This document shows, in pieces, positions 20,438 to 31,351 of a DNA stretch of 33,501 nucleotides (position 1 is the first letter of the stretch; every line of letters begins with the position of its first letter). Location: positions 1-33,501 of IMG/VR virus record IMGVR_UViG_3300046804_006495. One strand, written 5' to 3'. The translations under genes were made by a program, and so were the position numbers. The DNA is from a virus. The notes under the pieces are model-generated. The model did not search any database. It had not been told where the DNA came from and worked only from the letters and a program-made list of their open reading frames with translations.

Positions 20438-21343
20438 TTACTCTTCTTCAGCAAGCTTCTTGAAGAAATCCATGTTGTCATCGTCTTCTTCAAACGCCTG
20501 ATCAAGTTCCTTAGCAGATTTTGTCGGACGCTTAGGAGCTGCCATTGTATCCTCTTCATTATCTACAGCACGACTAGTCGGCTTTGGTGCAGACCCATCG
20601 AGACACAAAACCTTATGCAGTTTAGCTTTCAGCTCATCGTATGACTTGAAGTTCTTTAGATCAACAAACTCCTGAAGCTGATACTGCTTACTCCACAACG
20701 CTTCGAGTTCCTTGTCATCTTCTGAAATCGGAGCAGGAGAGTCAAACTCAGATTTATCATAGTTACGATATCCTTCAACATTACGAATCTTAATCTTGAA
20801 GTTGGCACCTTCCCACATATCGAACGGATTCAAAGGCTTCTCATCCTCAAATTCGGGATTCATTGCTGCGTTGAGCTTGTCGAAGATCTTCTTACCGAAC
20901 TTGAAGAGAAACACCTTACCCTCATTAGCGGGGTTGGCAGGATCTTTTACAACAAGGATGTTCGAGAAAAAGTTCAAGCGGCGCTTTTGCTTACGGACTT
21001 GCTGCTTGTTTGATTCAATACCGGAATTCCACAGCTGAGAATTGTACTCGGAGACAGGATCCTTCTGACCAAGCGTCGTCAACGACTTTTCAATGTACCA
21101 ACCACCAGGACCTTGGAAACCATGATCCCACACACGGACAAACGGAACATCTTCGCCCGACGGAGCTGGAAGAAAACGAATAACAGCATAACCGTTGCCA
21201 GACTTATCAACTTCTGGATACCAGAAACGATTGTCTTCTTGCTGACCTTGTTGCTGCTTGGCATCGAGCTTGGAGACTTCGGAGACGAGCTTATCGAAAT
21301 TGGACTGACGGGACTTCTTGAGCTGAGCAAAACTTGTAGACAT
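20438..21343 (-). CDS. 32: gp32 single-stranded DNA-binding protein
   Basis: This 301-aa protein is the same length as T4 gp32. The basic N-terminal self-interaction segment (FAQLKKSRQSNFDKLVSEVS), the OB-fold core (NGYAVIRFLPAPSGEDVPFV, WYIEKSLTTLGQKDPVSEYN, KVFLFKFGKKIFDKLNAAMN) and an acidic tail from ~280 (AFEEDDDNMDFFKKLAEEE) are all visible. It coats ssDNA and recruits replication and recombination proteins through the acidic tail. The T4 zinc ligands (one His, three Cys) have no counterpart: there is a single Cys in the whole protein. It has its own sigma70-like promoter at 21425-21453 and a GAGG ribosome-binding site. It converges with the glucosaminidase gene with no base between the stops. 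Confidence 0.92.
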   Translation of the reverse strand: MSTSFAQLKKSRQSNFDKLVSEVSKLDAKQQQGQQEDNRFWYPEVDKSGNGYAVIRFLPAPSGEDVPFVRVWDHGFQGPGGWYIEKSLTTLGQKDPVSEYNSQLWNSGIESNKQQVRKQKRRLNFFSNILVVKDPANPANEGKVFLFKFGKKIFDKLNAAMNPEFEDEKPLNPFDMWEGANFKIKIRNVEGYRNYDKSEFDSPAPISEDDKELEALWSKQYQLQEFVDLKNFKSYDELKAKLHKVLCLDGSAPKPTSRAVDNEEDTMAAPKRPTKSAKELDQAFEEDDDNMDFFKKLAEEE

Positions 21344-22206: not shown

Positions 22207-22812
22207 TTATTGTTTGTTATTTATGAAGCGGTCAATAGTGAGTTGGCGACACTTTTCATTGTTAAATCGCACGAATGGCTTATATTTATCAATTTTATTT
22301 CTCACTTCAGGCCAAACAACGCGATCATCAATATTTTTGTTCCAGTATTTTATAAACGGTGTAATAGTATCAAGGATGATAACTGTTTCAATACACACAT
22401 CTTTTTGAAGATATTTCTTGAGTAAGGACGGATGTTGACCATCAATAACTTCAAAGTTCTTGTTATAGTCATCGTCCAGCCCTATCAATTCATTCTTGTA
22501 GTGATAGGTTATCGACTCCTGACGCTTTAACCACTTTGCATACGTGTTGTTAACTTTCATGTTTTCCATCAGATCCCCGATCCACTGGGAAGGTCCAAGG
22601 TCAACAAAACTTGCAACGAGATATTGTTCTAGATTTTTCTGCTTTGAAAGTTTGTAGAAGAAGTACTTGTCTTTCCGAGTCTCAAAAGTATCTGGCGTGG
22701 CTTTCACTCGTCCCTGGTACTTAAAGTAATCATACTTGGGGTTCGTAAAGTGGCTTTTTAACGCCAGATACTTCTTATACGCTTCAAACGCTTCAGCCAT
22801 TTCAGGCGACAT
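22207..22812 (-). CDS. 59: gp59-like helicase loader
   Basis: This 201-aa protein (T4 gp59 is 217 aa) is recognised by RKDKYFFYKLSKQKNLEQYL followed by SQWIGDLM, matching T4 RRDKYFFQKLSEKYKLKELA...WIGDI, and by the later TVIILDTI (T4 TFILLDSF). gp59 loads the gp41 helicase onto gp32-coated DNA and forks. The gene lies in the T4 33-59-32 order. The ATG used here (22812) overlaps the methyltransferase stop by 11 bases; a second ATG at 22798-22800 directly after that stop is equally possible. Neither has a strong ribosome-binding site. Confidence 0.8.
   Translation of the reverse strand: MSPEMAEAFEAYKKYLALKSHFTNPKYDYFKYQGRVKATPDTFETRKDKYFFYKLSKQKNLEQYLVASFVDLGPSQWIGDLMENMKVNNTYAKWLKRQESITYHYKNELIGLDDDYNKNFEVIDGQHPSLLKKYLQKDVCIETVIILDTITPFIKYWNKNIDDRVVWPEVRNKIDKYKPFVRFNNEKCRQLTIDRFINNKQ
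22218..22225 (-). promoter_or_regulatory. Probable late promoter upstream of holin-like gene
   Basis: The minus strand reads CATAAATA, a NATAAATA match located inside the last codons of gp59. The downstream ATG is 31 bases away, similar to the other late promoters here (27 and 31 bases). It would allow late expression of the two membrane genes independently of gp59. Confidence 0.6.
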
Positions 22813-24026: not shown

Positions 24027-24552
24027 AGAATATATGCCTTCCTATCTTTCCAATTCGCTTTTTCTTCCAGCCAGGATTAACGTAGTCAGCGTGGTAATAC
24101 AACGCATCATGTAAAAGATCCAATCGAAAGTCCTCTAAAAGAACCTTCTTTGCTGCTATGTATGATTCCTCGTACGATTTTGTATTTGTTGGAGCTAAAC
24201 TTGATGGATGAAGACAATACCACGAAAATTGGCATACTGTCTTCGACATCAATGTGTCTTTTTGGTACACAACTCTACAAATGTCATTCGGAAAATGTGG
24301 AGAGTTAGATCTGTTAATTGTAACTTGAGCAACAGCAATCTTTCCCTCAAATGATTCCACACCAGCCTCATGATAAACATTTAATGCAAGACACTTAAGT
24401 TGTCTTTCTCTTTCTGCTGCTGTTATAAACTCCTTGCCTTGATACTTATTGGTGAAACGTGATATAGCAGAATTTGTGGCAACAAATCCAACAAATAGTC
24501 CAATTGCCACACACGCGATTGTAGCAATCGCGCTGACGGTTCTTTGAGACAT
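24019..24552 (-). CDS. SleB/CwlJ-type cell wall hydrolase (endolysin) with N-terminal anchor
   Basis: This 177-aa protein starts at ATG 24552, preceded by AGAGGAAC. The longer frame to 24603 runs back into a terminator and is unlikely. Residues ~5-28 form one hydrophobic helix, suggesting a signal-anchor endolysin exported by the Sec system. The hydrolase_2 domain begins around residue 48: CLALNVYHEAGVESFEGKIA then VAQVTINRS, with the candidate catalytic Glu in YHEA (~62). Family members cut peptidoglycan (lytic transglycosylase or amidase activity has been reported for the family). This would be the lysis enzyme, distinct from the virion glucosaminidase. Confidence 0.85.
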   Translation of the reverse strand: MSQRTVSAIATIACVAIGLFVGFVATNSAISRFTNKYQGKEFITAAERERQLKCLALNVYHEAGVESFEGKIAVAQVTINRSNSPHFPNDICRVVYQKDTLMSKTVCQFSWYCLHPSSLAPTNTKSYEESYIAAKKVLLEDFRLDLLHDALYYHADYVNPGWKKKRIGKIGRHIFYE

Positions 24553-24570
24553 TTTTGTTCCTCTGTTGTT

Positions 24571-24609
24571 AAAAACGAAGGGGATGTTTCTGTTTCCAAG
24601 CACATCCCC
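24571..24609 (-). terminator. Intrinsic terminator after the tmRNA gene
   Basis: On the minus strand GGGGATGT (24609-24602) and ACATCCCC (24587-24580) form an 8-bp stem with a 14-base loop, followed by TTCGTTTTT. It separates the tmRNA transcription unit from the endolysin operon. Confidence 0.85.
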
Positions 24610-24872
24610 AAAAGCTCAGGCAATTGCGCTGTTAGGCAGCAAGAGCCATTTCGTAATCGCTATCATTGGCGTTTACTTGGTTTTGCTCTGCTTACGGCAG
24701 TCGCCTCTCGGGTTGCCATAATGCCATACTCCCTGCCCGTCGAGACCAATTCAGGCCCATCAGAAGCACACTGTCCAGATATTAGTGAGGGCCTCTGTGG
24801 GACAATCAGTGTGCTTTTGGTGGACCTGCCCGGAATCGAACCGGGGTCCGAACAGCTTTCTTTCACTACAGT
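24610..24872 (-). ncRNA. ssrA: Permuted two-piece tmRNA
   Basis: The acceptor piece comes first in the gene. TTCGGAC, a T stem/loop CCCGG-TTCGATT-CCGGG, acceptor CAGGTCC and an encoded ACCA end at 24818. After a 59-base intervening segment, the coding piece begins at 24758 with GGGCCTGAATTGG, TCTCGACGGG. GGGCCTG pairs with CAGGTCC over all seven positions with a G3.U70 wobble, the alanine identity element. The tag reads GCC (resume codon, 24670) to TAA 24632-24634: ANDSDYEMALAA. AAGCACACTG (24816-24807) and CAGTGTGCTT (24773-24764) in the intervening segment pair over 10 bp, extending the acceptor stem as in permuted precursors. The outer ends are approximate; the 5' end may begin just after the upstream small gene. 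Confidence 0.92.
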
Positions 24873-25040
24873 TTACAACCATTCCCACTTCGTTGAGTCA
24901 AGCTCTGTCCGACTATGAGCCCAACTAATAGCTTGATCCTTTGTTTCAAATACAGGACTGGCTAACGTGTCCTCGCTGTTTACAAAATACCAAATGTCAA
25001 CAGCTCCTACACCATCATTATACTTTATTAGTTTTAACAT
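24873..25040 (-). CDS. Small hypothetical protein (55 aa) upstream of tmRNA
   Basis: This short gene runs from ATG 25040 to TAA 24873. The protein starts MLKLIKYNDGVGAVDIWYFV and ends in STKWEWL; a VFETKDQAISWA helix lies in the middle. Its amino-acid composition and the fit between the 178-aa gene and the tmRNA acceptor piece suggest it is real, although the ribosome-binding site is weak. It looks like a small alpha/beta protein with no known motif. Its stop codon is at the likely 5' boundary of the tmRNA acceptor piece. Confidence 0.6.
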   Translation of the reverse strand: MLKLIKYNDGVGAVDIWYFVNSEDTLASPVFETKDQAISWAHSRTELDSTKWEWL

Positions 25041-25068
25041 ATAAGTTCAACATCCATTAATATGTTTG

Positions 25069-25605
25069 TTACTTATCTAAAAGAATTGGTGTAGGGCGTT
25101 TAGACCATTTAGCGAGGTGATCTTTACCATATCTGTAGTAGTTGTGATATGATCGTAAAGAATCTCCTTCTACCTTGTATTCGTCGGGCATAGCAGGTGT
25201 TGGCTCTGTAAATTGCCCGATTTTAATATTTCCAGGTAGAAATTTTAAATACTCAATCAGCTCGCTTGTCTTGTGCGTCCGACCATACCGATAGCTATAC
25301 TCATCGATCAAATTGCAAAACAATGTGTATAACCACGAATAGTTCTTATCACACTGCCTCGTCCATATCGCAGAAGGATGCTTAACGTGTGCAGCTTGAT
25401 ACAATACATCCTCTCTATAGTCCGACAGCTTCCACCTGACAACCTTACGACCATTAACGTTTGTAGTTAAGTATTGGTCTCCATCTAAGATTCTATGAGT
25501 AGTAGAGAGTAACTGAGCATACTCAACAATCATCTTCACACAATGCTTGTCGTTGTGCATACGAGCACATGCAACAGGATCAAGGTGAAGATAAAAAATA
25601 TTCAT
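25069..25605 (-). CDS. Conserved phage protein of unknown function
   Basis: This 178-aa protein has the pattern MNIFYLHLDPVACARMHNDK, H, KMIVEYAQLLSTTHR near the N-terminus, HPSAIWTRQ around 77 and YRYGKDHLAKW at the end. Similar His/Lys-rich small proteins occur in many large tailed phages without assigned function. The conserved His and Lys residues could be catalytic, but I cannot name a reaction. It overlaps the 63-aa gene by four bases (ATGA), and the pair belongs to the transcription unit that also holds the tmRNA. Confidence 0.65.
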   Translation of the reverse strand: MNIFYLHLDPVACARMHNDKHCVKMIVEYAQLLSTTHRILDGDQYLTTNVNGRKVVRWKLSDYREDVLYQAAHVKHPSAIWTRQCDKNYSWLYTLFCNLIDEYSYRYGRTHKTSELIEYLKFLPGNIKIGQFTEPTPAMPDEYKVEGDSLRSYHNYYRYGKDHLAKWSKRPTPILLDK

Positions 25606-25793
25606 GCTGTTAGTTCTAAATTAAACTTGTCGGCCTCAGAACCAGAAACGTAACGACCATCGACATACGAATTCCAAAACATTCTAGGTTTAGAAAGTTC
25701 TTTGAAATACATATTCTCATTCCACCGACGGATCTGATATGTGTTAAAATCTTCGTCTGGATAGCGAGCTGGATTAAACGGATGGGTCTTCAT
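25602..25793 (-). CDS. Small hypothetical protein (63 aa)
   Basis: The protein is polar and aromatic (YQIRRWNENMYFKELS, FWNSYVDGRYVSGSE), with no membrane segment or known motif. It has a strong AGGAGG ribosome-binding site 4 bases before the ATG and is the first gene behind the sigma70-like promoter at 25827-25855, so it is probably expressed early. Confidence 0.65.
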   Translation of the reverse strand: MKTHPFNPARYPDEDFNTYQIRRWNENMYFKELSKPRMFWNSYVDGRYVSGSEADKFNLELTA

Positions 25794-25826
25794 ACTACCT
25801 CCTATAACTTTTCCCTGACAGCAGGA

Positions 25827-25855
25827 TTATATTGAGCTGCAAAAATAAAGTCAAC
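25827..25855 (-). promoter_or_regulatory. Sigma70-like promoter of the tmRNA operon
   Basis: On the minus strand TTGACT (25855-25850), 17 bases, TATAAT (25832-25827). The -35 box directly follows the T-run of the preceding terminator. It is the only clear promoter in front of the 63-aa, 178-aa and 55-aa genes and the tmRNA. Confidence 0.85.
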
Positions 25856-25856
25856 A

Positions 25857-25886
25857 AAAAAAGCCACGCGCCTTTCGACGCGTGGC
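25857..25886 (-). terminator. Intrinsic terminator after the DUF932 gene
   Basis: On the minus strand GCCACGCG (25886-25879), an 8-base loop, CGCGTGGC (25870-25863), then six T. It is GC-rich against the AT-rich background. Confidence 0.92.
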
Positions 25887-25899
25887 AATGTTACTACAA

Positions 25900-26859
25900 T
25901 TAAGCCGCGTTAGCGTACTCGACTGCAGTTTCGAGAGCTTTGATCTTGAGGTTACGGTTCTGACCAAACCAAGCAGACTTGATACGAGTGTCATTTGTAC
26001 GACCAATCTCGTGGTCAGTCAGGAACGTGACAGCGTTAAACGCGTTCCACCACGTGCCACGAGCAAACTCAGCACCAGGTTGCGCTTCAACGATCTCAAG
26101 AGCACGAACAGCAGACTTCGACAACTCCTTCTTGCTGTTCTCCTTCTGAGTAATCACAGGGAACACATTACCCATGTATTCCTTGAGCTTCTGCTCGGTA
26201 TACTTTTTGACACCGAGGAACTCAGCCATTTCCTTATACTTGGCGAGCTTGCGGGTTGCGATGCCGAGAGTCTCCTTAGCAGTGTCAGCATCAAAAGCAC
26301 GACGGTGAGACTGTTTGAACACTTGCTCAGACTTAGAGTTAATAGCGAGTGTTAGGGTGTTGTTGCACACAACACGGATCGGAGTGAAACGAATGTCGAT
26401 CCCTTGACCAAATTTGTGCGGGTTCGTGAACAGGAGATATGACTCAACGGTATCCTTCTTGAACACGGTGAACCCATCATTGACCTTGGCAAGCGCCCAC
26501 ACGATACGACCACCATCAAGCGAACCAGCCGTATGCATCTGCATGTCACCAGCTTCAACGAACTCACGGAAGAACTCGAACGCTTCCTCGTTCTGCACGG
26601 GGTTCCACTCGTTCGACACAACGCCAAGAACCTTATGATCGGTCATACGAGTGAGGGCAGACCAACCGACAGAAACCTTCTTACCATCGATTGTTGAGTA
26701 CGCGGGGATCTTTTCAACTTGCCAATCAAGGTCTGCCGCTTTCAACATCTGGTCAGTAGACAGATCAGCAGGGACTTCCTTGCCAAGGCCATGCCACGGC
26801 AATTCGCCGGCGTAGGCCATCTTTGCAACACCATTTACAATTTCAATATTGTGTGCCAT
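25900..26859 (-). CDS. DUF932 / phage-plasmid-like protein
   Basis: This 319-aa protein matches the phage/plasmid-like (TIGR03299-type, DUF932) family: GELPWHGLGKEVPADLSTDQ, then a VVSNEWNPVQNEEAFEFF segment, ALAKV, RVVCNNTLTLA (residues ~168-178) and GTWWNAFNAVTFLTDHE near the end. The family is widespread on phages and plasmids and its function is unknown. It has its own promoter (26900-26928) and terminator, so it is a single-gene unit, probably early and strongly expressed. Its codon use looks slightly more GC-rich than the structural genes. Confidence 0.88.
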   Translation of the reverse strand: MAHNIEIVNGVAKMAYAGELPWHGLGKEVPADLSTDQMLKAADLDWQVEKIPAYSTIDGKKVSVGWSALTRMTDHKVLGVVSNEWNPVQNEEAFEFFREFVEAGDMQMHTAGSLDGGRIVWALAKVNDGFTVFKKDTVESYLLFTNPHKFGQGIDIRFTPIRVVCNNTLTLAINSKSEQVFKQSHRRAFDADTAKETLGIATRKLAKYKEMAEFLGVKKYTEQKLKEYMGNVFPVITQKENSKKELSKSAVRALEIVEAQPGAEFARGTWWNAFNAVTFLTDHEIGRTNDTRIKSAWFGQNRNLKIKALETAVEYANAA

Positions 26860-28517: not shown

Positions 28518-29504
28518 TTAGCAGTTTGTTACAACTTCACTTCCTTTTTCGTAAAATTGAAAATCATATATTTTACACTCAGTACCTTCTGTCACAGCAC
28601 TCATAACATCACTACGCTTATCTTTTTTAACGTAAAAGATAAAAAAACCGCCTCCGCCAGCACCTAACAACTTACCACCCAAAGCGCCAGCTTCAATAGC
28701 CTTATTATAAACACTATCAAAATAATCATTACTAATAGACTCTACAATTGTTTTCTTAGTTTGCCATCCCTCATGAAACAGATGACCAATGTCATCAAAC
28801 TGTCCATGCAGAATACTATTGTAGGCTTGATACGCTTTGTCTCTATTAGCCCTAACCTTATCAAACTTGCTTTTATCTGCAAGTGAGTCACGTTGCTTTT
28901 GAAGAATACTGTTTGCTGCCCTTCCTCTACCACTATAAACAAGAAGTAGGTTTTGATTTAATTCAAACATCTTCTGATCATTAAGATTGATAGGTGTATG
29001 ACTTACGGTATTGTCTGGATGAAATTCGAAAAGATTCATACCACCGTAAGCAGCAGCATACTGATCTTGTTTGCCAATTGGATAACCACAACGATCAATT
29101 TCAATTTCACATGCAACGTCAGCTAGGTATTGCTTTGTAATGTGGCCCCAACGAAGTGTGGCAAGGGCATTAACAAGTCCTACCGTAAAGGTTGAAGAAG
29201 AACCAAGCCCGGATCCCTTTGAAAGGATATCTGATATTGACGCGACAGTAATTTCTTTCTTGTAATTAAAGTACGTAAATGCCTCTTTAGAAATTTCGTG
29301 TTGCATCGTCTCAACATCAGGCGTCTCTTCAATCTTATCGTACATTGCCTTGATTCCGAGGTGAGGAGTGCGATGTACACAAACATATACAAACTTGTCG
29401 ATAGTAACTGACAGAGCTGCTCCTTTTTCTTTCTCATAGAAAGAGCTCATATCACTGCCTCCACTAAAGAGGCTCATTCGGAGAGGTGTCTTAGTGACTA
29501 TCAT
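28518..29504 (-). CDS. hddA: HddA-like GHMP kinase (heptose-7-phosphate kinase)
   Basis: This 328-aa protein belongs to the GHMP kinase superfamily. The N-terminus TKTPLRMSLFSGGSDMSSFY, the ATP-binding loop GSGLGSSST at 97-105 and the C-terminal GALGGKLLGAGGGGFF are all typical of D-glycero-D-manno-heptose-7-phosphate 1-kinases. HddA makes heptose-1,7-bisphosphate, the substrate of GmhB-type phosphatases. Context strongly supports this over fucose/galactose kinases, because the same operon has GmhA and GmhB homologues. It overlaps the transaldolase by four bases (ATGA). Confidence 0.85.
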   Translation of the reverse strand: MIVTKTPLRMSLFSGGSDMSSFYEKEKGAALSVTIDKFVYVCVHRTPHLGIKAMYDKIEETPDVETMQHEISKEAFTYFNYKKEITVASISDILSKGSGLGSSSTFTVGLVNALATLRWGHITKQYLADVACEIEIDRCGYPIGKQDQYAAAYGGMNLFEFHPDNTVSHTPINLNDQKMFELNQNLLLVYSGRGRAANSILQKQRDSLADKSKFDKVRANRDKAYQAYNSILHGQFDDIGHLFHEGWQTKKTIVESISNDYFDSVYNKAIEAGALGGKLLGAGGGGFFIFYVKKDKRSDVMSAVTEGTECKIYDFQFYEKGSEVVTNC

Positions 29505-30238
29505 AGGGTGATCTTAAATCCTGACTTGACAGCATCATTGTAAAACATCTCTACTGTTTCATGAGAATATTCTTCAAGATCTTTACCAAACATATCAAGT
29601 TTTTTAATCATCTGAGGTGTCATTGTAATGATATCGCAACGACATTGTTCTGCTTGAATATAGTTGTATGGCTCACGAGCGGATGCCCACAAAATTTTGA
29701 CTTTATGAGAAAGAAATTTTACATGACCAAGTAATGCGGCGCCATGGCGTACCACTTCCACAGGATCGACTCCAGCGTCAGCAATTCGTCCAGCAAAAAT
29801 AGAGATTATGCCATGAGTGTCGGGGTTAAGTGCTCGAGTAACTTTTTCTACTTGTTCTTTTGTAAAAACAGCAGTGACGTTGCAATTAACATTAATGTCA
29901 GACAATCGACGCACGAGATCATATGTTGGAACTTTTTTTGTGTTCATTACAGGGATCTTAACAAACACACGATACCTCTTCATTGCTCCCCACGATTGAA
30001 TTTTAATTGCTTGATTATACATCCCTTCAATATCATCATCAAACACCTCAAGACTCAAACACGTCTCGGGACGTTTAGCAGCAAGATATTCAATACACTC
30101 TTTAGCAAACTTCTCGTAGTCAGTAACACCAGCCTGTCGCATCAGAGTTGGGTTAGTTGTAAAGCCAGCAATCCTCGGATTGTCTGCAGCCTCTTTGATA
30201 CCCTGCATGTCAGCGCCGTCGGCGAACAATTTAATCAT
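29501..30238 (-). CDS. Transaldolase-family protein
   Basis: In this 245-aa protein the LFADGADMQGIKEAADNPRI start, GFTTNPTLMRQAGV (24-37), FVKIPVMN with Lys94 as the candidate Schiff-base lysine, NCNVTAVFT and ISIFAGRIADAGVDP are all transaldolase/fructose-6-phosphate aldolase motifs. Transaldolase can form sedoheptulose-7-phosphate from fructose-6-phosphate and erythrose-4-phosphate, the direct substrate of the GmhA homologue two genes upstream. Cyanophages carry a TalC of similar size for redirecting pentose metabolism, but here the heptose operon suggests feeding heptose synthesis. It overlaps GmhB by 8 bases. Confidence 0.85.
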   Translation of the reverse strand: MIKLFADGADMQGIKEAADNPRIAGFTTNPTLMRQAGVTDYEKFAKECIEYLAAKRPETCLSLEVFDDDIEGMYNQAIKIQSWGAMKRYRVFVKIPVMNTKKVPTYDLVRRLSDINVNCNVTAVFTKEQVEKVTRALNPDTHGIISIFAGRIADAGVDPVEVVRHGAALLGHVKFLSHKVKILWASAREPYNYIQAEQCRCDIITMTPQMIKKLDMFGKDLEEYSHETVEMFYNDAVKSGFKITL

Positions 30239-30773
30239 AACTAGACTCCTTTTGATTTATTATATAGCATGCTTCAAGTGCATTGGCAACGATGTAATCT
30301 GGTTTTATTGATTTAAATTCCTCTGGGGGTGTGTATGGACCGTTGCTAACATAAAACGTAGTTAGTCCACTTCTGTACCCGCAAACAACATCACGCCAAC
30401 TATCTCCAATAAAAAAACTTTGGTGTCTGTCAATATTGTGTCGTATACAAAGGTCGTCGACCATTCCTGAGTTAGGTTTGTATCCTCTCGAACCACGTTC
30501 CTTGCAATAGGAAATTGAGTCAACACCCAATCGCTCATTAAGAATGGAATGCATCTCGTTAAGTGCTTCTTGTGTCATTAGCTTATCGAGAATATCGGGT
30601 TGGTTAGTAACAACATGAGCTTGATATCCCATTGACTTACATAGCTCTACAGCTGCTTTTGCCTCGGGGAGTATTTCAAATTCTTCTACAAGCCAAGCAG
30701 CCGTATATCGGTCGCCGTGCTTAACCATTTTAGCTAGCACACCATCACGATCAAAAAAGATAGCTTTTACCAC
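30231..30773 (-). CDS. gmhB: GmhB-like HAD phosphatase (heptose bisphosphatase)
   Basis: This 180-aa protein is a HAD hydrolase: FFDRDGVL (Asp8 nucleophile, Asp10 acid/base), VVTNQPDI (motif II), a Lys in RGYKPNSGM (motif III) and FIGDSWRDVVCG (motif IV). It matches the D-glycero-D-manno-heptose-1,7-bisphosphate 7-phosphatase subfamily. The Cys/His zinc loop of E. coli GmhB is not apparent, as only one Cys is present near residue 99. The start is GTG at 30773, overlapping the GmhA stop by 7 bases. Histidinol-phosphatase activity is an alternative, made unlikely by context. Confidence 0.85.
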   Translation of the reverse strand: MVKAIFFDRDGVLAKMVKHGDRYTAAWLVEEFEILPEAKAAVELCKSMGYQAHVVTNQPDILDKLMTQEALNEMHSILNERLGVDSISYCKERGSRGYKPNSGMVDDLCIRHNIDRHQSFFIGDSWRDVVCGYRSGLTTFYVSNGPYTPPEEFKSIKPDYIVANALEACYIINQKESSYD

Positions 30774-31351
30774 GTTGTTTTTTTAGACTGCAGTTTGGGA
30801 TGAGAAACAATGCTATGCCATACAACAGCTTGAAACGCTTCGCTGTGGGGTGTAACCCTTTCAGGAAAGAGCTCGGGCACTACAACAACATGATCACCAT
30901 TGAGTGCTGTGTACCCTGTGCTTTTACCAACAACGCCACAAACGGTCGCTTGTTGTTGCTTTGCATACTTAATTGCATTAATTAGATTGAGAGAGATTTT
31001 GCGTTCTTCAGAACCTCCTCCAACAGAAAAGATTAACAAACAATCGCTAGCAGTAAGATTGCTGGTTCGAAGATAAGCCTCAAAAATTGTTTCGAAACCA
31101 TCATCGTTAGTCCGTGCTGTAAGTTCAGAAACGTTGTCTGTAGGAGCATAAGCTTCGATACCACATAGCTTACGAAAATCATTAACAGCATGAGAAGCAT
31201 TGCCTGCTGATCCGCCGACACCTAAAACGAACAATCGTCCCTTTCGAGTCCGAACAAGTGATAAAGCGTCAACAATGCTTTCTATTTTTTCTTTGGATAT
31301 TGTTTTTGCAATTTGGGCAACTTCAGTAAAAAATTGTTCGCTAAAGCTCAT
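30767..31351 (-). CDS. gmhA: GmhA-like sedoheptulose-7-phosphate isomerase
   Basis: This 194-aa protein (E. coli GmhA is 192 aa) is an SIS-domain protein with GVGGSAGNASHAVNDFRKLC (44-63), LLIFSVGGGSEERK and a C-terminal HSEAFQAVVWHSIVSHP, all conserved in GmhA. It converts sedoheptulose-7-phosphate to D-glycero-D-manno-heptose-7-phosphate. It is the first gene of the heptose operon, with GCGAGG as ribosome-binding site and a late-promoter-like element 75 bases upstream. Confidence 0.87.
   Translation of the reverse strand: MSFSEQFFTEVAQIAKTISKEKIESIVDALSLVRTRKGRLFVLGVGGSAGNASHAVNDFRKLCGIEAYAPTDNVSELTARTNDDGFETIFEAYLRTSNLTASDCLLIFSVGGGSEERKISLNLINAIKYAKQQQATVCGVVGKSTGYTALNGDHVVVVPELFPERVTPHSEAFQAVVWHSIVSHPKLQSKKTTW

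Follow-up and report, generated by a model that had tools for sequence, protein, structure and literature searches.

The window, as we call the whole 33,501-nucleotide stretch of the IMG/VR virus record IMGVR_UViG_3300046804_006495, belongs to a T4-like myovirus carrying gp32, gp33, gp59, and a gp6-like baseplate wedge protein, with its gp32 being nearest (~55-58% identity) to those of cyanophages, pelagiphage HTVC008M, and uncultured marine viruses. Its minus strand holds, at 24931-24556, a complete permuted gene (ssrA) for tmRNA, which rescues stalled ribosomes. Downstream on the same strand lie a cell-wall hydrolase or endolysin (PF07486; 24019-24552) that directly follows the tmRNA, a small protein, a gp33-like late-transcription coactivator (PF16805; 23431-23712), a methyltransferase-like protein, the gp59 helicase loader (22207-22812), two small proteins, and the gp32 single-strand DNA-binding protein (20438-21343). 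Upstream, a 55-codon ORF (24873-25040, minus strand) has its stop codon within the conserved GGUUGUAA at the tmRNA start, and because it ends inside the first bases of the tmRNA, production of the latter would cut its message. A protein 62% identical to its product is found at the same place in a related locus (L089); as a general feature the overlapping ORF was rejected, being recognisable only in the window (L001), L008, and L089, and weakly in L195. Elsewhere on the minus strand (28518-31351), a run of sugar genes resembles a heptose pathway, its members including a HAD phosphatase and a SIS-domain isomerase and, as judged by eye, kinase-like (GHMP type) and transaldolase-like proteins.

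Covariance models matched this gene over their full length and not at the T arm only. The permuted tmRNA model RF04321 scored 140.2 bits at 24880-24632 (cut-off 47, E 9e-28, model positions 1-213 of 213), and the beta-type model RF01850 scored 108.3 bits at 24931-24556 against a curated cut-off of 84, such that the match to tmRNA cannot be put down to chance. Within the Rfam clan the beta model was the best, with the alpha, cyanobacterial, and standard models scoring lower or falling below their cut-offs, and ARAGORN likewise called a permuted gene (tmRNA* at 24541-24910) with the tag ANDSDYEMALAA. A preliminary description made from the letters alone had proposed a phage-encoded, permuted two-piece tmRNA at 24610-24872, and these searches, together with the relatives described below, bear it out; the locus was right and the span slightly short, as the core extends over 24632-24880, the beta model ends at 24931 and 24556, and a 3' hairpin occupies 24609-24580.

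Read along the minus strand, the T arm, the 3' half of the acceptor stem, and an encoded CCA come first, followed by a spacer and then by the 5' half of the acceptor stem and the tag frame. The acceptor piece (24818-24880) starts with GGUUG, the pairing partner of CAACC in the 5' piece, and contains GGAC (24849-24846) just before the T arm CCCGG-UUCGAUU-CCGGG (24829-24845, from sequence and the Rfam alignment), the acceptor 3' half CAGGUCC (24822-24828), and, after 24822, the discriminator and the CCA, which ends at 24818. A 59-nt intervening segment (24759-24817), predicted to be absent from the mature RNA, separates it from the acceptor 5' half GGGCCUG (24752-24758), where RNase P would be expected to cut at G1 (24758). 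All 7 acceptor pairs form, including G3.U70, and the tag frame ANDSDYEMALAA with its UAA stop (24632-24670, located by both ARAGORN and Rfam) is preceded by GUAAAC. The pairing, the G3.U70, the CCA, and the tag stop that had been proposed are thus all present in the minus-strand bases, and the processing points that had been suggested, 24818 and 24758, coincide exactly with the CCA end and G1. With its score, the 3'-before-5' order with 7-bp pairing, the G3.U70 and CCA, and a tag that carries a hydrophobic degron and a stop, the gene has the sequence features of an RF04321 member. The mRNA-like piece ends in the hairpin GGGGAUGU...ACAUCCCC followed by UUCGUUUUU (24580-24609), which possibly serves as a terminator and was not among the calls of a terminator scan. 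The precursor RNA of the window folds better than shuffled sequences (z -3.0).

Scanning IMG/VR with a pattern for the tRNA-like domain, with gp32 and hydrolase proteins, and with two tag patterns revealed permuted tmRNAs called by ARAGORN at 186 loci, a number that takes in the window and the control phage Melnitz (L002), plus one dubious standard call. This count depends on ARAGORN alone, as for 15 of 82 and 33 of 116 of the loci retrieved by pattern, some of them cut at contig ends, the program reported nothing. Among loci first found by tag pattern, which does not require permutation, every ARAGORN call was permuted save one dubious extra call, and a 20-locus sample run against Rfam was mostly of beta type, with two of alpha type. 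In L089 the hydrolase is 97% identical to that of the window and the tmRNA region (tag ANEDTYLMAA) 80% identical, from which this segment would appear to change fast or to recombine.

These relatives revealed that both the spacer and the acceptor stem are under constraint. The 10-bp intervening helix that had been noticed in the window, AAGCACACTG/CAGTGTGCTT, is present at 24816-24807 with 24773-24764 within a spacer that folds at -16.2 kcal/mol, and its end helices are kept in relatives. Across 90 distinct viral spacers the closing helix averaged 9.6 bp versus 4.9 bp in shuffles that preserved single-base composition only, usually with 0-1 nt between the CCA and its start and 4-5 nt between its end and G1, and bacterial permuted spacers also possess a closing helix (mean 8.0 bp). 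The helix is a conserved device that presumably aligns the cut sites or aids processing. Among the 128 viral loci in which both acceptor halves could be located, 126 had all 7 pairs, with the complete stems comprising 14 different sequences that arose by compensatory change, and pair 3-70 was G.U in 126.

Gene order around the tmRNA is fixed where the neighbours were found, running tmRNA, endolysin, gp33, gp59, and gp32 on one strand. In a set partly retrieved via the gp32 or hydrolase proteins themselves, the hydrolase was on the tmRNA strand in 135 of 135 loci where found and downstream in 133 of them, and gp33 (107/107), gp59 (105/105), and gp32 (87/87) were always downstream on the same strand; among loci with MALAA tags and at least 5 kb of downstream sequence, 26 of 28 had the hydrolase and 21 of 28 had gp33, gp59, or gp32. 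Starting instead from the 36 gp32 loci whose upstream sequence reached 4.5 kb or more, the tmRNA was present at 13 and ARAGORN called none upstream in the other 23, so that the gene is dispensable in part of the phage group. A T4-type late promoter, TATAAATA, occurs upstream in 14 of 176 relatives versus 3.4 expected, with none near the gene of the window.

Prophages often integrate at ssrA (cited in PMC9004378), and the gene might then be a non-functional remnant, or a copy from an attachment site, of a host ssrA that was acquired through imprecise excision. We regard such an origin as highly improbable, since the gene is whole with both halves and the tag, its relatives show compensatory acceptor-stem changes and a fixed place in a T4-like late and replication gene block, viral tmRNA genes mostly cluster apart from the sampled bacterial ones, and no integrase was seen in the ORF list of the window (33.5 kb of the genome). 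The narrower candidate of an integration-site fragment, a partial 3' copy beside an integrase, was rejected on the completeness of the gene and the same ORF list. Deep support in the tree of tRNA-like parts is weak, so the capture of the gene from a host cannot be dated from it, and monophyly of the MALAA tmRNAs was not supported. DNA-similarity matches to mycobacteriophages were likewise discarded, being T-arm matches only, with no tmRNA found at the locus checked.

We consider it probable, at about 0.78, that the window gene encodes a functional tmRNA of an aquatic T4-like phage lineage that borrows host machinery. The sequence itself shows the anatomy, the covariation, the conserved locus, the spacer helix, and the tag frame, and from these we infer how the RNA would be processed and charged, which protease would act on its products, when it would be made, and what the phage would gain. 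In the folded transcript, the spacer helix would bring the CCA end and G1 together, and host tRNA-processing enzymes, including RNase P, would excise the spacer to leave two pieces that stay paired through the acceptor stem and the helix of GGUUG with CAACC. Host AlaRS would charge the RNA via G3.U70, and host SmpB and EF-Tu would deliver it to stalled ribosomes; the SmpB of the host would be needed because 12 related phage records, some of them >150 kb and up to 245 kb, yielded no gene for SmpB. The ribosome would resume at GCC, adding A-ANDSDYEMALAA, and the tagged chain would be destroyed by host ClpXP, with SspB probably helping. The likely benefit would be that ribosomes stay free for use as mRNAs are cleaved in the course of infection. 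That the phage supplies its own ribosome rescue had been proposed at the outset, and it stands as the best explanation, with sequence as its basis.

A related explanation holds that the gene is a counter-defence, replacing rescue capacity lost to defence or phage shut-off through RNA-cleaving toxins or RNA decay. Cultured phage-host pairs in which the phage encodes a complete RNA of non-host form fit this explanation, as its differing form and sequence could evade nucleases aimed at the host RNA, and tRNA genes adjoin the tmRNA in several phages. No link to a defence system was found. Counter-defence is compatible with the rescue reading and does not exclude it; we take it to be a rather unlikely account of the gene in its own right.

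Evaluating the tags revealed a repertoire largely distinct from that of the sampled bacteria. Viral tags took 80 forms, only 3 of them in common with 23 sampled bacterial forms, although that bacterial sample is largely from one order and was partly picked by a 10-residue pattern. Among 22 tags that had not been selected by tag pattern, 19 had an aromatic residue at position 7 (the numbering includes the alanine that the charged tmRNA supplies) and 21 ended in AA, and some viral tags end in LMAA, LAAA, or RLVA. Identical tags in different phages use several synonymous encodings, 9 in the case of ANDEQFALAA, a pattern consistent with selection acting on the peptide. The class of the window, ANDxx[FY]xMALAA preceded by TAAAN, was found in 84 viral contigs and in none of 84,980 prokaryote species genomes. 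Once the TAAAN context was dropped, 1 of 369 Gammaproteobacteria genomes was found to have a one-piece tmRNA with ANDENYSMALAA, so the MALAA ending is not strictly phage-only and an absolute claim of that kind was rejected. Bacterial permuted tmRNAs retrieved with the tRNA-like-domain pattern carried 10-residue tags, such as ANDERFALAA and ANDEQFAIAA, bar three Stenotrophomonas loci.

Such differences could mean that the phage tmRNA mainly reprogrammes proteolysis, with an altered tag shifting the fate of tagged chains or sending host proteins to degradation to supply amino acids, as suggested for Melnitz; the few shared forms, the altered endings, and phage tags unlike those known from the host genus Stenotrophomonas are in line with this. 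We judge it improbable. tmRNA acts on stalled ribosomes and does not choose host proteins, the bacterial sample behind the comparison is narrow as noted, and the window tag and most others retain ALAA and the AND..aromatic part. In Escherichia coli, AANDENY is the SspB module and ALAA a separate ClpX module, and a 4-residue insert between them is harmless to degradation (PMC8512704); in the window tag A-ANDSDYEMALAA, AAND, the aromatic residue, and ALAA are all retained, with two extra residues in between. The preliminary description had raised redirection of degradation by the tag, and the retention of AND, the aromatic position 7, and the C-terminal ALAA argues instead for ordinary ClpXP targeting. 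The peptides we name for a ClpXP/SspB comparison are AANDSDYEMALAA, AANDERFALAA, and AANDENYALAA. Beyond the rescue reading, we offer only tentatively that a large aquatic T4-like clade may have kept ssrA at a fixed locus and evolved its own tag repertoire, tuning how tagged chains are degraded in infection. One class of this repertoire, the 12-residue AND-xx-[FY]-x-MALAA, would preserve both the SspB- and the ClpX-binding part and separate them by two more residues.

The two-piece tmRNA of a phage is not itself a first, as phage Melnitz and many aquatic phages are already known to carry one (PMC9004378). The same study found tmRNA in 402 of 18,146 phage genomes, with 53 of 133 unique forms being two-piece and 50 of these aquatic; in view of these numbers and of the 186 viral contigs found here, the earlier remark that tmRNA is rare in phages needs qualifying. 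Melnitz (a Methylophilales phage, MZ577097) is, like the virus of the window, T4-like and aquatic, with a permuted tmRNA that precedes gp33, gp59, and gp32 on their strand, and its tmRNA end, ACUUGUAAACAGAAACAUCC, is similar to the 3' hairpin end of the window. It differs in its alpha type (106.7 bits), its tag ANDNYVPVDYALAA, its 142-nt spacer, and a glutamine riboswitch that follows the gene, whereas the window has a beta type, a 59-nt spacer, and an adjoining endolysin. A Melnitz-type arrangement was therefore rejected for the window, in which the beta model wins and a search of 24300-25900 gave no riboswitch match up to E 1, the same search recovering both the alpha-type gene and the riboswitch in Melnitz. 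The Stenotrophomonas menderaviruses Moby, Marzo, and Yut2, cultured lytic phages that are likewise T4-like, also carry a permuted tmRNA, which is annotated, but theirs lies between tRNA-Leu and tRNA-Thr near nrdAB with the tag (VA)ANDDSYTVRIAA. Betaproteobacterial two-piece tmRNAs (RF01850; Rhodocyclaceae and one Cupriavidus) share the permutation, the beta-model match, and a similar spacer helix, and differ in their uniform 10-mer tags (ANDERFALAA, ANDEQFAIAA) and spacers of ~28 nt. The tmRNA of mycobacteriophage DS6A is tagless (CDS-less) and inhibits the host tmRNA (PMC11915505), in contrast to the full tag frame of the window. In the literature accessible to us, mostly without subscription papers, we found no account of the fixed locus in this phage group, of spacer-helix conservation in phages, or of the tag diversification. 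With >100 phage tmRNAs of varied tags at a conserved locus forming a natural set, why phages carry a ribosome-rescue RNA becomes testable by swapping or deleting one gene.

We also evaluated whether the gene points to the host group, as had been supposed, and find this unsafe. Stenotrophomonas genomes had a one-piece tmRNA in 31 of 31 cases, with tags such as ANDDNYALAA, whereas in the Stenotrophomonas phages Moby, Marzo, Yut2, and QDWS359 the tmRNA is permuted, with the tag (VA)ANDDSYTVRIAA or ANDSVYAQAIAA, and the alpha-type gene of Melnitz does not match the lineage of its host (PMC9004378). The form and tag of a tmRNA thus do not give the host, and we caution against their use in phage host assignment; the beta type of the window only hints at a betaproteobacterial host. 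The host search yielded no bacterial genome with the tag class of the window in its TAAAN context, and in the tree even the closest bacterial sequences lie far from its tmRNA. Three Stenotrophomonas genomes (L271, L283, L298) hold permuted tmRNAs with the unusual tags ANQVDYHQARIAA and ANADYYDQDEEVILRVA, copies that are plausibly prophage-borne. In the Burkholderiales, Cupriavidus numazuensis G001 (L275, L495) and G160 (L496, L497) each have a one-piece and a permuted tmRNA on separate contigs, with one-piece tags ANDERYALAA and ANDEKYALAA and permuted tags ANDERFALAA and ANDENFAMAA, the second copy of which could be mobile or contamination. Finally, ARAGORN calls permuted tmRNAs that are unannotated in the records of Xanthomonas phages Rb1 (L462) and X1 (L463) and Stenotrophomonas phage QDWS359 (L461), the last of which has a hypothetical protein annotated antisense over the gene.
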